Shown: one piece after another, positions 25,601 through 34,364 of the stretch | Numbering within the stretch: position 1 is the stretch's first letter | How the letters are laid out: every line of letters begins with the position of its first letter | Source of the DNA: Thraustochytrium sp. TN22 | Lineage: Eukaryota > Sar > Bigyra > Thraustochytrida > Thraustochytriidae | Length of the DNA: 64,000 nt | Assembly: GCA_013306675.1 (NCBI GenBank) | Contig: JABLUY010000120.1 | Span: 1-64,000, forward strand | Reading direction: 5' to 3' | Position numbers and translations under genes: made by a program | The notes under the pieces: model-generated | Told to the model about the DNA's origin: nothing | The model's input: the letters and a program-made list of their open reading frames with translations, nothing else | Databases searched by the model: none

Positions 25601-28600
25601 TTATCGGAACGAGGCGCTTGACCCAAAGTACTGGTTGTAATTGACATGCATGAGGATGCGCTGCGCCGCACTGTCCGCGGAGAGCGAATTCCGCGCGTAC
25701 GACGTCATCGTGCGCAGCAGGAACGCCTGCGTCTTGTGAAAGTCGCCCCATGCGCGCTCCAGCTCGCGAGGAACGGCGATCACGACATCCGGGCTCGCGT
25801 CCTCGCCCAAAATTACGTCCAGAAACTTATCACTCTCCTGCGCCAGCACGTCCGCCTTCTCCAGCGCCCGTTGGATGCAGTCTGCCAGCACCTTGGACAC
25901 CGGCGTGCCGTCCAAGAAGCACGAGCGCAGGGCCGCCTGCGTGAAGCCGTGGTGAATGTCCTGTAGGACCTTGGGGTGCGAGCGCAGCACATCGGGCGCC
26001 GCGAAGGCTGACTCCATCGCGGTCCAGTGTTCTGCCAGGAGCCGCGTCATGAGGTAGTCCTCCAGATTGCAAAGCAGGTTGCGTACCTGCTGCCATCGCA
26101 CATAGAGCCACGTCAGCACGCGCAGCCGGCTGTGCCGCCGTGAAGCGCACAACCGTTGCCACACGCGCCGCACGAGCGCCGTCGCGTACTTGAGCCGCAG
26201 AAGGAAGCGGTGCACGCGCGGATACGCCGCCCTGTCCTCCTCTCGAACAATGTACGAGAGCGGCCACCCCAGCTCGTAGTCTGCCTGCACGAAGCCAAAC
26301 TCCACGAACTTGGCGTGGCCGCCGCGTGCCTCTTCCGTTGCTTCCACCGCGTACTTGAAGCAGCGAGCGAAGCCGCGCTCGCTCAGCTGCAGCGCGTCCA
26401 TCTCCGCGTCCAGCGCTTCCTGCAGGCCCCGCCCTTTGCCATGCCGGAGGTCCACGTCCCGGAGGCGCATCTCATGCAGGCGATCCACCAGACCATTGAA
26501 CAGGTCGCCCTGCGCCATAAAGACCGTGCTACGGATGCCCTCCAGCGCCCCGCGCAGATCTGATTGGCGCACCACCAGCGCCACAAATGCGGACTCCACC
26601 AGCTCGCACTGCTGCAACAGCGGTTCAACCACCGCCAGCTCCAGCGCCGCGTCCAAAGACCCGCACGGGGCCTCGTCACACTCGAGAAGCGCCAGCGAGG
26701 CCGCAATCACAGCGTTCTTCGCGCCGCCAGGCGCCTCCCGGCACTCCGCAAGGTCCGTGGAGATGCCTTCGCCATAGCTCAGTGGCCTGGTATCCAGCAT
26801 TGCCTGCCGCATGCGCCGCACCGCCTCGCGCCGCGCCTGCCCATCAGGCGCGGCGCGCTCCACCTCAAGCTTCGACCCGCCGCCCAAGAGCCGCGAGATG
26901 GTGCTCGTCCCGCCCGACGGCTGGCTCACATGAACAGATGCTCGTTGCATCTGAGGGCGCGCCCCGGCAACCGGAGAAAGCGCCTCCCGCGCGGCGCTCC
27001 CATCCCCACCCGGAGCTTGCTGCACTCTCACTGCGGCGCGCTGCGGTCGAAGTGGGCTAGAGTCGGAGAGCGCCTCCCGTGCGGCGCTTCCATCCCCACC
27101 CGGAGCCTGCTGCACCTTGACGGCAGCACGCTGCGGACTATGCGTGGTCGAGTCCGACATTGCTTCACGAGCAGCACTGCCGTCGCCACCTGGCACTTGT
27201 TGCACCTTCACGGCAGCGCGCTGCGGACTATACGTGGTCGATTCCGACATTGCTTCTCGAGCCGCACTGCCGTCGCCACCGGGCACTTGTTGCACCTTGA
27301 CGGCAGCACGCTGCGGTCGTGGTGGGCTAGAGTCCGACATTGCTTCTCGAGCAGCACTGCCGTCGCCACCGGGCACTTGCTGCACCTTGACGGCAGCACG
27401 CTGCGGCCTTGGTGGGCTAGAGTCCGACATTGCTTCTCGAGCAGCACTGCCGTCGCCACCGGGCACTTGTTGCACCTTGACGGCAGCGCGCTGCGGCCTT
27501 GGTGGGCTGGAGTCCGACATTGCTTCGCGAGCAGCACTGCCGTCACCACCAGGCGCTTGCTGTACCTTGACGGCAGCACGCTGCGGCCTAGGTGGGCTAG
27601 AGTCCGACATTGCTTCTCGAGCAGCACTGCCGTCGCCACCAGGCACTTGCTGTACCTTGACGGAAGCACGCTGCGTATGGATGGGACTTGCGCCCGACAT
27701 GGCCTCACGAGCAGCGCTCGCGTCCCCTCCAGGTGCCTGTTGCACCTTCACCGCAGCGCGCTGCGGACTCACGGGACTTGCGTCAGACATCGCGTCGCGT
27801 GCAGCTTTACCGTCGCCACCGGGCGCCTGCTGCACCCTGACTGCGGCGCGACCGGGCTGTGCAGCTGACGACCCGTACAGCAGGTCGCCTGCGACATCAT
27901 GGCCGCCTGGAGGCTGATGCACAACGACAGAGGTGGGCTCGGCGATACCAAGCCCCTTCTGCATCGCGTCCCTGGCGGCAACGAGATCGGGCGGGAGGTT
28001 GAAACCGTCCTCCTCGAGGCGCTGTATCTGCTCCATGATGTGGCGCTCGGCGAGCTGGCGCTCGGCGTCCGATACGGGCGAGGTGAAGTCTCGAGGCTGA
28101 CTCTCGCGCTCCACGCGCTGCTTCTCGAGACGCTCGCGGATCTTCTGCGCGCGCGCGTCCTCGGCGGCCTCGCGAAAGGCGTCAAGCTGGAGCTTGCGCT
28201 CGGCCTCAATGCGGGCCTGCTCCTCCTTGGAGCGCGCCAGGTAGCGAGCGTTGACGGCCTCGGCCTCGGTACGCGCGGATTCGAGCTTGCGCCAGACGAG
28301 CAGGCGGGCCTGCTCGGCCTGCTCGGCGCGTTGGCGCGCTGCGGCCTCGCAAAGTTTCTGGACCTCGGCGCCGAGACGGCGGCGGCGGCGCTGCGCGAGG
28401 TCCGCGATGGTTTGCAGGCCGATAGCATCGCAGTCGCGGCCGGCGCGGAGCGCGCTGGCGCGATAGGCGGCCTCTGCCTCCTTTTGCGCGCAGAGCGCAA
28501 ACAAGGAGGCCTCGCCGCCTTGCGCGAGGCCTTCCCCGTGCATATCCCGTAGCAGGCGCAGCAGGCAGCCGCAGAGCGCAAGGCGGCGCGCGAATGCCGC

Positions 28601-30739: not shown

Positions 30740-31637
30740 GCCTGCCGGCCGCGCGCTCCGGGTCGGGTCTGCGCGCGGCGCGCGCGCCCGCGCCTCCTCG
30801 TCCCTCCGCTCAGCTCATCCATGCGCTCGCCCTCTCGTCATGATGAGTCGTGATGCAGAGACTGCCGCCCGTTCAAAATTCGAAAAGCTCGTCAAATTCT
30901 CCACGCGGCCTCAGGGCCTGCCGCCGCCCGCCGCCGCGCCCGCCGCCGCGCCCGGAGGTACGCGCGGCTGGCTGCTCGCGACGCCTCGCGCGCCGCCCCG
31001 GCACGGGCTGGGCGCCCGACCGTGTGCGCGGCGTGCAAGCACGAGCGTCTCGACTTCCGCGCACTCCGGTGCGACGTACCGGGTATGGGCTTGCAGCTTG
31101 AGCTGGCAGCTGCTTGCTTGCGGTGGCGGGCGCTTAGATCCTCACGGCTCAGTGACGGCTGGCGGCTGGCGGCCTTGGCCAAGCCTTCGGCTCAGGCTTC
31201 CAGGACTACGAGCGCCGGCCATGTCCTCCCCAGCGCGCTCCGGCCCGGGTGCAGGCAGCGTGACGGTGACGCAACTTACCGGGTATGCTGCGCCCAGCCT
31301 GAGCTGGCTGGTGCGGCTGCTGTGCGGCTGCCGCCTGCTTGGCGGCCCTCAGAGGCTCAGCCTGCGCCCCACGAATACATAACTTAGATACCTGCCTCGC
31401 GACGTCGCGACGTCGCGACGTGGCGACGATTAGGCTGCCTGGCTTGGTGGAGTGCAGCGCCGCAGCTGCGGCGGATGTGGTGCCAGTGAGATCAGGCTTC
31501 TTTCTATCAGGACTGCCTGCGTGGACAGGGCGAGGCGAGCGGCGCGAGCAGCTCAGCAGCGGCAGCAGACCCGGTGAGCGCGCGCGGGCACGCGAGGCGG
31601 CGGCGGCGGCGGCGGCGGCGGGCGGCGGCGCGGCGCG
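30740..31637. other. Divergent promoter region, GCP6 / methyltransferase fusion
   Basis: A 0.9-kb gap with CGACGT-type repeats at 31397-31423 and a GGC run at 31598-31632 just before the downstream start codon. No gene is recognised. Confidence 0.5.
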
Positions 31638-34364
31638 ATGCGGCGGCGCGGCGGCGCGGAGGGCACGCCGGGCGGCAGCTTCGTGTCGACGGGGGACTCG
31701 TCCGTGGCGGACGCCTCGGACGATGCGCGGCTGTACGCGTTCGAGCCTGAGGAGGATGACAGGGACGATGCAGGCGCCGCGCGGCGCGCGCGGCTGGTGG
31801 CGCGCGCGCGCGGCGCCGGCCTCAGGCTGTCGGCGTCCGGCAGGGAGGACGACGAGGAAGATGACGAGGGCATGACGTCGGCGACCAGCGACGCGAGGCC
31901 CGCCAGCGTGCCGCGCGCCAAGCGGATCGCCGCCCGCAGGAAGCAGCAGGAGCAGGCCGGACAGCAGCATCCGCACCAGCCAAAGGCCGGCGCCGGGGGG
32001 AGCGCGCCGGACGTGGGCGTGACGCTGGACGGCCAGCGCGCCTTCGAGGTGCCGGCCACGTACTCGCTGTCGCAGAGCCTGCTGCAGCGCTGGAGCTCGC
32101 CCGGCTCGCTCGTGGCGTACTTGGGTTTCGTGCTTTCGCTCGCCACGGCGTTGTCGTTTCGCGCGACGCCCAGCGTCTCGCTGGCGCTCGCCTGCGCATG
32201 GCGCCTTGGCAACAACGGCGGTGTGGGCTGGCTGCTGCGGCACCAGAGCCGCGAGGGCCTGCTCACGGCCTGGGCGCGGCGACTGCGCGAGCGGCCGTTC
32301 TCGCGTGAGAACACCTTTTGGAGCTGGGTTCTGCGCCGTTCCATGCCGGGAGCCCGGGAGGTGGTCAACGACAGCAGGCTGCCGCCCTCGTTCCCGGCCT
32401 GGGTGGCCTTCCGCTGCCTCGTCATCATTGTCGAGAGCAACGACGTCTTCGCCTTTACGCTCATGGCCGTGCTCTACGGGCTGCAGGAGCGCCCCACCTT
32501 TGAGTGGCCGCTGCTCAACCCGCTCATTGACGTCATCGGCGTCTTGCTGATCGCCGTCAGCCTGGCGAGCAAGATGTCTGCCATGACGCACGCCGGCGAA
32601 CCGGCTTGGTTCTGGTTCGACTTTTTCTTTTTGCGCACCGGAACCACCGAGCTCACCTACGCTGGCGTTTTCGCCATCTTTCCGCACCCCATGTACACCG
32701 TGGGCTATACCTGGACCTACGGCTGCGCGCTGCTCTCGCGCAGCTACCAGGTGCTGGCCTGCGCGCTGGCCTTTCACGTCTCGCAGCTCCTCTTCCTTGT
32801 CTTCGTCGAGGCGCCGCACGTCGACGAGCTCTATGGCACGGGCCGCGAGCGGGACCACCACCCGGATAGCGTCGCGGAGAGCTTCATGGGCGAAATGTCC
32901 CTTGTCGGCACCTCCTACATTTACCTGGCGCGCCACTTTGACTTTTTTCGCGCGGCCGACGTGCTCCTGCTGCTCGCCGTCTCGCTCTTCGTGAGCACCA
33001 TCTGGGTCGGCTCCTTTCCGGGCGGGCCCTTTGACGGGACGGCGCCACTCGTTCTGCTAGCCATCGGCGTGCGCCTCCTCGCGGCGCTCGTCAAGGGCGC
33101 CATCCTCGTGGGCCAGGAACGCTTCAAGATGTGGACGAGGCACTACGCCAATCTGGGTCGCTCGCGCGTGGAGGCCTTCGAGAACTGGAAGCGTATCTAC
33201 CTGCTGCTGCAGGGACTGGAGACGACCAGCTTCGCCTTCTGCACTTCGCGGCTCGTCAGCGCGCCGGAGAGCCTCGTGGACCCCATCACGGTCTGCCGCC
33301 TGCTCCTGGGCGTCATCCTCGTGCTCGTATCGCTCTGGTCTCACGGCGCGTGCTACCAGGCTCTGGGCGACTTTGGCACCTTCTACGGCGACTTCTTTTT
33401 GCCGCCCGCGCGACTCAAGGCAGGCGCAAGCCCGACCGGGCCGGTGCCCGGGCCCTCACCCACCTACGACGGCCTCTACCGCTACCTCAACAACCCGGAC
33501 ACATACCTCGGCCACCTGTGGATGTACGGGCTGGCTGCGCTGGCGCACTCGGGCGAGGTGCTGGCCGTGGCCATTCTCGGGCACAGCATCAAGATTGCTT
33601 TTCTGAACGTCATCGAGAAGCCGCACCTGCGCGCCGTCTACAAGCAGCAGGTGCGCGCACACTCGACGGCCCTGGGCCGCGCCATCCAGAGCCGCGTGTC
33701 GGAGATCCGCCGCAGCGAGACCGCGCTCTTCCTCGCGAACTGGGCCAAGCACCCGCTTGAGACCGGCGCTCTGGCACCCAGCTCCGAGCAGCTCGCCGAG
33801 GCCATGTGCGACACCATGTACCTGGGCGACGGCGCCGTGGTCGTGGAGCTTGGCCCCGGCACGGGCCCCTTCTCTGCCATGCTCATCGAGCGCCTCTCCA
33901 AGGCCAAGAACACCCACTATTTCGCCTTTGAGCTCTCGCAAGAGTTTATCGATCGCCTGCGCGACCGCTTCCCGGACCACCGCGACTGCTTCCTGCTCGA
34001 GTCCGCGGAGCGCATCGTCTCTGTGCTCGAGGAGCGCGGCATCCACCAGGTCGACACCATCGTCTCCGGCCTGCCATGGGCCATCTTCCCGCGCGCGCTT
34101 CAGGAGAGCATCCTCCAGCAGGTGTACGCCGCGCTACGTCCCGGCGGCCGCTTCTGCACCTTTGCCTACCTCCAGGGCCTCGTGCTGCCGGCCGGCCAGA
34201 GCTTCAAGGCGCTCCTGCAGTCCACCTTCGGTAATGTTGAGCGCTCCTCCACCGTCTGGAACAACCTCCCGCCCGCCTTTGTCTACCGCTGTGAGAAGCC
34301 CAAGGACGCCAAAGTCGACGACGCCAGGCTCACCAAGAAGGACAGTCTCGAGTCGAAGAGTTGA
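31638..34364 (+). CDS. Fusion of PE N-methyltransferase (CHO2-like) and PmtA-type phospholipid methyltransferase
   Basis: This 908-residue protein probably methylates phosphatidylethanolamine toward phosphatidylcholine in the ER. Residues 1-110 are acidic and disordered. Residues about 150-690 are a multi-span membrane region with CHO2/PEMT features: FAIFPHPMYTVGYTWTYG, then EAPHVDELYG, and a second similar module (YRYLNNPDTYLGHLWMYG). Residues about 700-908 form a soluble SAM-dependent methyltransferase with motif I VVELGPGTGPF near 735, then SGLPWAIFP and VWNNLPPAFVYR. Those motifs match bacterial PmtA-type phospholipid N-methyltransferases, which normally stand alone. The frame is continuous, so the fusion is not an assembly of separate frames. 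Transfer of the second domain from bacteria is an inference. Confidence 0.85.
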   Translation: MRRRGGAEGTPGGSFVSTGDSSVADASDDARLYAFEPEEDDRDDAGAARRARLVARARGAGLRLSASGREDDEEDDEGMTSATSDARPASVPRAKRIAARRKQQEQAGQQHPHQPKAGAGGSAPDVGVTLDGQRAFEVPATYSLSQSLLQRWSSPGSLVAYLGFVLSLATALSFRATPSVSLALACAWRLGNNGGVGWLLRHQSREGLLTAWARRLRERPFSRENTFWSWVLRRSMPGAREVVNDSRLPPSFPAWVAFRCLVIIVESNDVFAFTLMAVLYGLQERPTFEWPLLNPLIDVIGVLLIAVSLASKMSAMTHAGEPAWFWFDFFFLRTGTTELTYAGVFAIFPHPMYTVGYTWTYGCALLSRSYQVLACALAFHVSQLLFLVFVEAPHVDELYGTGRERDHHPDSVAESFMGEMSLVGTSYIYLARHFDFFRAADVLLLLAVSLFVSTIWVGSFPGGPFDGTAPLVLLAIGVRLLAALVKGAILVGQERFKMWTRHYANLGRSRVEAFENWKRIYLLLQGLETTSFAFCTSRLVSAPESLVDPITVCRLLLGVILVLVSLWSHGACYQALGDFGTFYGDFFLPPARLKAGASPTGPVPGPSPTYDGLYRYLNNPDTYLGHLWMYGLAALAHSGEVLAVAILGHSIKIAFLNVIEKPHLRAVYKQQVRAHSTALGRAIQSRVSEIRRSETALFLANWAKHPLETGALAPSSEQLAEAMCDTMYLGDGAVVVELGPGTGPFSAMLIERLSKAKNTHYFAFELSQEFIDRLRDRFPDHRDCFLLESAERIVSVLEERGIHQVDTIVSGLPWAIFPRALQESILQQVYAALRPGGRFCTFAYLQGLVLPAGQSFKALLQSTFGNVERSSTVWNNLPPAFVYRCEKPKDAKVDDARLTKKDSLESKS

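Follow-up and report, generated by a model that had tools for sequence, protein, structure and literature searches.

A single Thraustochytrium reading frame joins a Cho2-like PEMT region to a bacterial-type lipid N-methyltransferase domain

A 64-kb stretch of contig JABLUY010000120.1 from Thraustochytrium sp. TN22 (positions 1 to 64,000; here, the window) contains a gene at 31638..34364 (+) whose 908 codons, followed by a stop, run uninterrupted through a Cho2-like half bearing PEMT domains and into a bacterial-type (Pmt-type) lipid N-methyltransferase domain. The open frame and the domain matches bear out the union proposed by the first-pass annotation, and the motifs that it quoted, VVELGPGTG, SGLPWAIFP, and VWNNLPPAFVYR, are all present in the translation. 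Both parts belong to known families, and the novelty lies in their union; among the matches listed for the open-licence literature, no title or abstract opening describes a fusion of the PEMT and Pmt folds.

Our favored reading, to which we give a probability of roughly 0.55, is that this is one membrane-anchored protein with two unrelated phosphatidylethanolamine (PE) N-methyltransferase heads, both of which would perform, or at least favor, the step that commits PE to the methylation route, its conversion to monomethyl-PE. The N-terminal half, with its two PEMT domains, would be a Cho2-like integral membrane enzyme, presumably residing in the endoplasmic reticulum (ER), and the C-terminal head would be a bacterial-type Rossmann-fold lipid N-methyltransferase attached to it by a helical linker. 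Separate PEMT/Opi3-like proteins encoded elsewhere in the genome would then finish the conversion to phosphatidylcholine (PC). A bacterium was the probable source of the soluble head, which would have been fused afterwards, and the fusion would tether to the membrane an enzyme that is bound only peripherally in bacteria.

The evidence for the N-terminal half comes from the PEMT profile (PF04191; cut-off, 25 bits), which the whole protein matched with 143.2 bits in two stretches. Each of these passes the cut-off when scored separately: residues 299 to 400 (32532..32837, +, or up to 32840 in a second placement) with 69.0 bits and residues 554 to 670 (33297..33647, +) with 78.1 bits. Two PEMT domains within one chain is the architecture of Cho2, and by its motifs, too, we take this half to be Cho2-like. 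In the full-length structural model, the membrane half is of low quality (mean pLDDT, 55.9 overall), and a helical linker is predicted at residues 662 to 691 (33621..33710, +), with pLDDT block means of 74 to 82. After the linker comes a short helix of moderate confidence at residues 694 to 704, which may be the counterpart of the membrane-binding alpha-A helix of PmtA. The top 18-residue hydrophobic moment of the linker stretch starts at residue 681 and lies at the 94th percentile within the protein.

The C-terminal domain (residues 694 to 889; 33717..34304, +) was best matched by the OlsG model NF041658, with 95.4 bits (E 3e-27) over residues 694 to 889, followed by the PmtA model NF045881, with 47.7 bits (E 1e-12) over residues 693 to 844. 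Profile searches of the two parts thus support the earlier assignment of two methyltransferase families to the protein. Strict PmtA or OlsG membership is rejected, as both curated cut-offs (250 and 350 bits, respectively) are far from reached; all 10 other family proteins that were scanned (proteobacterial, actinobacterial, and one planctomycete) also fall below the PmtA cut-off, at 50.5 to 111.7 bits. By its sequence, the domain belongs to the PmtA/OlsG lipid N-methyltransferase family as a divergent member and is no textbook PmtA. Its AlphaFold model (pLDDT 90.2) has a predicted PmtA fold, with Agrobacterium PmtA as the first Foldseek match in the PDB (E 8e-12; next protein, 5e-10). The rRNA dimethyladenosine methyltransferases, named by the first-pass annotation as the alternative, gain no hold here: the RrnaAD profile scores 16.9 bits against a cut-off of 24 and aligns at positions 17 to 76 of 263 only, which rejects a KsgA/Dim1 identity. 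A separate Dim1/KsgA gene is present elsewhere in the genome, and the domain aligns to it with 28 bits (25% identity over 126 alignment columns).

Relatives of the domain were sought in prokaryotes. A tblastn search of plasmid records matched 206 of 72,556, the best being from Nonomuraea gerenzanensis (43.5%), and a scan of prokaryote genomes confirmed at least 493 stretches of 598 candidates. The best 80 of these 493 loci share 38 to 48% identity with the domain and come from Streptosporangiaceae and other actinomycetes, Planctomycetota, Verrucomicrobiota, Lentisphaerota, Acidobacteriota, and a few other groups; the best bacterial match has an E value of 8e-56 (45% over 194 aa). After the removal of 12 duplicates, residues were counted over 135 rows (the query and loci L001 and L010 excluded), and the counts are biased towards close relatives by this best-of-list sampling. 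The SAM-binding motif VVELGPGTG (33840..33866, +), in which E737, G739, and G741 align with E58, G60, and G62 of Agrobacterium tumefaciens PmtA (AtPmtA), keeps its Glu and both Gly residues in 135/135 relatives. In the SGLPW motif (34065..34079, +), G811 aligns with A128 of AtPmtA and G130 of Bradyrhizobium diazoefficiens PmtA (BdPmtA), and Gly is found in 120 of the 135. The F842-A-Y844 motif (34161..34169, +), holding the putative specificity Phe and catalytic Tyr, aligns with I159/Y161 of AtPmtA and F161/Y163 of BdPmtA; the Phe is shared by 119 and the Tyr by 124 of 135 relatives. The family signature NLPPAFVY (34263..34286, +) keeps its N in 134/135 relatives, its first P in 134/135, and its second P in 135/135. 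E765 is also kept in the fusion domain, and from the AtPmtA set E58/G60/G62/E84/D106/A107 plus Tyr161, every residue is retained except D106, which is Ser here and in 47/135 relatives.

A tree was built from 87 of 138 rows left by a 66% identity filter, with L010 omitted; AtPmtA itself is not among the rows, and no row is known to exceed the PmtA cut-off. OlsG-equivalog scores above 350 bits were found in 0/199 genomes of one phylum and 0/201 of one order, so the tree likewise contains no curated OlsG. The domain falls within a 61-row group of actinobacterial, PVC, and acidobacterial proteins (support, 80/92) and, inside it, within a 28-row group (82/88) that gives it no resolved sister; this phylogenetic support is modest, and that for joining an actinomycete clade is 61/0. 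An approximately unbiased (AU) test rejected its grouping with the eight proteobacterial PmtA-like rows (p 0.000747), a group that was picked after the tree had been seen. Holding the domain with the seven OlsG-nearest rows was not rejected (p 0.289), nor was holding it with the single outgroup row, the genome's own Dim1 (p 0.248), a result that mostly reflects re-rooting and is uninformative. The bacterial source proposed earlier for this domain is therefore likely in a comparison that covered prokaryotes. "PmtA-type" in the strict sense, at 47.7 of 250 bits and with the proteobacterial PmtA-like grouping rejected, is not supported. In viral contigs, the C-terminal part picked out 13 stretches and the PEMT part 4, none of which was confirmed.

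The step performed by the C-terminal head can be approached through its pocket residues. AtPmtA (Ala128/Ile159) takes PE all the way to PC in three steps, BdPmtA (Gly130/Phe161) makes mainly monomethyl-PE, and exchanging Ile and Phe changed the products of both enzymes (PMC12139422). The fusion carries Gly811/Phe842/Tyr844, the BdPmtA set, from which monomethylation, not the three-step chemistry of AtPmtA, is predicted. The Phe rule is established only in S-type Pmts, and Phe also occurs in most of the listed Pseudonocardiaceae copies; with Phe in so many of the 135 relatives, the rule may not discriminate within their family. Phosphatidylmethylethanolamine is recorded for Nonomuraea and Microbispora, genera that contain relatives (PMC11091084, PMC8049491). 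The introduction of the latter also credits Microbispora with PC, so the recorded lipids do not point to monomethylation specifically.

The remainder of the PC pathway was surveyed in the same genome. In yeast, Cho2 performs the first methylation step and Opi3 the later ones, while mammalian PEMT, an Opi3 homologue, performs all three (PMC12139422). The Thraustochytrium genome has three matches to PS decarboxylase, a source of PE, two over the cut-off to choline/ethanolamine kinase, none to the OlsB family or to the betaine-lipid synthase family PF11899, and two further single-domain PEMT proteins, L006 (G000:C138) and L007 (G000:C199), which share 31% identity over 176 alignment columns. These two score 43.3 bits (profile positions 2 to 72 of 105) and 39.3 bits (3 to 95 of 105), covering the PEMT profile only partially, and are candidates for the later methylation steps. 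Another PEMT-matching protein fits ICMT better (103.5 versus 43.5 bits). PC is given as the most abundant thraustochytrid phospholipid in an Aurantiochytrium study, which also describes thraustochytrid PE as low and reports that its strain yielded no identified PEMT gene (PMC10523756); another paper invokes PEMT expression (PMC9530390).

The strongest alternative to two committed-step heads is the one put forward by the first-pass annotation, in which a single polypeptide takes PE to PC, its heads preferring different methylation states and passing intermediates on. Three-step enzymes are known in the family of the C-terminal head, namely AtPmtA (PMC12139422) and OlsG, which trimethylates its own lipid, and mammalian PEMT likewise completes all three steps (PMC12139422). 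Saccharopolyspora rosea has three matches to the OlsG model (L070, L115, and L118), two of them starting ~0.7 kb apart. In L115, the specificity position (Phe/Ile elsewhere) is occupied by Val, which suggests from sequence that the methylation steps may be divided in a bacterium. Against this stand the predictions for the two heads, both of which are first-step (Cho2 from the literature, Phe842 from the residues), and the two other PEMT-like genes. It is this combination of the first-step role of Cho2, the Phe842 pocket, and the two additional genes that leads us to favor a two-headed committed-step enzyme, and we consider a complete, state-specialized route within the one protein doubtful. 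In the evolutionary version of that scheme, a eukaryote took up a lipid methyltransferase from bacteria and joined it to its own Cho2-like enzyme; two unrelated sites at a shared membrane would then work on the same headgroup and hand on intermediates, so that the polypeptide converts PE to PC alone. As a whole, this version seems to us equally doubtful.

The C-terminal head might instead act on another amine lipid, such as ornithine or another amino lipid or ceramide phosphoethanolamine, the fusion then linking two pathways. The higher score of the OlsG model (95.4 versus 47.7 bits) speaks for this, as do the unrejected grouping with OlsG-nearest planctomycete rows (p 0.289) and a partial GH3-family match of 38.8 bits (L167, G000:C180:9934-10194, inside a 1961-residue frame), by which one ornithine-lipid route is not fully excluded. 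Nevertheless, the score misses the OlsG cut-off of 350, and the genome gave no match to the OlsB family. Ornithine lipids are, moreover, reported absent in eukaryotes. The site itself also argues otherwise: the Tyr and Phe of the fusion are of the Pmt kind, unlike those of 9/9 OlsG-nearest rows, and the catalytic Tyr is present in 8/8 rows of the proteobacterial PmtA-like clade and 0/9 OlsG-nearest planctomycete rows, a pattern that favors a PE-type over an OlsG-type site. We therefore regard a different lipid substrate as unlikely. Among the ten neighbor genes of six bacterial copies, there were no phospholipid-headgroup or ornithine-lipid genes. In the Lentisphaerota loci L029 and L034, the Pmt-like gene is preceded by a PF02366 glycosyltransferase gene and followed by an Hsp70 gene, and L058, too, has a PF02366 gene upstream.

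An idle or regulatory C-terminal head, binding SAM/SAH or an anionic curved membrane and so tuning the Cho2-like half, would accommodate the Ser at D106, a residue required for AtPmtA activity (PMC12139422). It would also suit the helix that precedes the domain, given that PmtA uses its alpha-A helix to bind and remodel membranes. The remaining SAM residues that were compared and the catalytic Tyr are retained, however, and Ser is common at this position among relatives, which makes such a role improbable.

Several observations count against the favored reading of two committed-step heads as well: the Ser in place of D106 and the OlsG model outscoring the PmtA model; the near-universal Phe, the PC credited to Microbispora, the partial GH3 match, the partial-profile PEMT proteins, and the modest tree support; and the Aurantiochytrium report cited above, with its low thraustochytrid PE and no PEMT gene identified in its strain (PMC10523756).

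The continuity of the frame itself was examined in the DNA. Translation of 31638-34364 begins at the first ATG of the frame, 21 codons after an in-frame TGA at 31575, and ends at the TGA at 34362-34364. The N-terminal ~155 residues (31638..32102, +) are of low complexity and rich in Ala, Arg, and acidic residues (pLDDT block means, 30 to 55), a GGC-rich tandem repeat spans the gene start (31591-31658), and the true start of the protein may be Met1 or Met79. Third-position GC (GC3) is 0.83 to 0.95 in all 15 full 60-codon blocks, with no dip at the PEMT/Pmt junction (residues 661 to 720), and 0.75 in the final 8 codons. No GTRNGT-like splice donor was found in 33600-33800. The only Met residues flanking the junction are 629 and 723, so the Pmt domain, which begins at about residue 694, lacks a separate start codon. 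GC content is 62 to 74% across the window, and a long open frame is by itself weak evidence; three strong domain matches sharing one frame, on the other hand, are far beyond chance. The gene is flanked on both sides by eukaryote-type genes, for a gamma-tubulin complex component and a bestrophin. The former (PF04130; 25601-30739, -) carries at 27016-27841 a 90-bp tandem repeat, 30 residues long in translation, in ~9 in-frame copies. Elsewhere, the 37.9-Mb assembly contains a frame for a PfaA-like polyunsaturated fatty acid synthase (2539.7 bits with its in-frame neighbors), which together with the flanking genes suggests a thraustochytrid-like protist. A pair of separate genes, or a false join in the assembly of 453 contigs, might mimic one protein, but the absence of an in-frame stop and of any Met between 629 and 723, the even GC3, and the eukaryote-type flanks make this very improbable.

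No bacterial PEMT-Pmt fusion was found among the loci examined. With the PEMT half as query, tblastn against a set of fetched loci gave a best E of 2.8, and a further search of 135 bacterial loci gave no hit at E ≤ 1, in a test that is insensitive: the genome's own other PEMT gene was recovered only at E 0.17 (0.09 reversed). Long frames at some bacterial copies (880 codons at L156; L033) look like high-GC read-through rather than fusions, L156 being judged by eye, and 10 upstream long-frame stretches, when profiled, contained no Pfam family at E ≤ 0.01.

PE methylation has been solved separately by PEMT/Cho2 enzymes, which are integral to the membrane, and by Pmts, which are soluble. With the two joined in nature, it becomes possible to test whether tethering or pairing both kinds of enzyme brings control or a kinetic gain. 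The protein is also a possible tool for producing methylated phospholipids, and it bears on PC synthesis in thraustochytrid-like oil producers.

Compared with fungal Cho2, the fusion has the same two PEMT domains in a long membrane protein, and its genome encodes separate single-domain PEMT-like proteins, as the fungal pairing of Cho2 with Opi3 does. It differs in adding a bacterial-type soluble methyltransferase after the second PEMT domain; we know of no fungal Cho2 that carries one. With A. tumefaciens PmtA, an S-type Pmt (PDB 9ko3), the C-terminal domain shares the predicted fold, the Glu and Gly residues of the SAM site, and the catalytic Tyr, but identity is 24%, Phe/Gly replace Ile/Ala, Ser stands in place of D106, and the domain is attached to a membrane protein. 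B. diazoefficiens PmtA, compared through its published residues (PMC12139422), has the same Gly/Phe/Tyr pocket and is described as a stand-alone Pmt rather than a fusion. The planctomycete ornithine-lipid N-methyltransferase OlsG (Sinac_1600) provides the best NCBIfam model, at 95.4 bits, yet this score is far below 350, and the Tyr is absent from all nine of the OlsG-nearest rows through which the comparison was made. The Pmt-like proteins of Nonomuraea, Phycisphaerae, Vicinamibacteria, and Lentisphaerota share 38 to 48% identity with the domain among the best 80 of at least 493 loci, and SGLPW, FxY, and NxPP are nearly invariant in 45 that were aligned. What sets the Thraustochytrium protein apart from them is the adjoining PEMT region, no counterpart of which was found beside the bacterial genes by an insensitive BLAST search and the profiling of 10 long frames.
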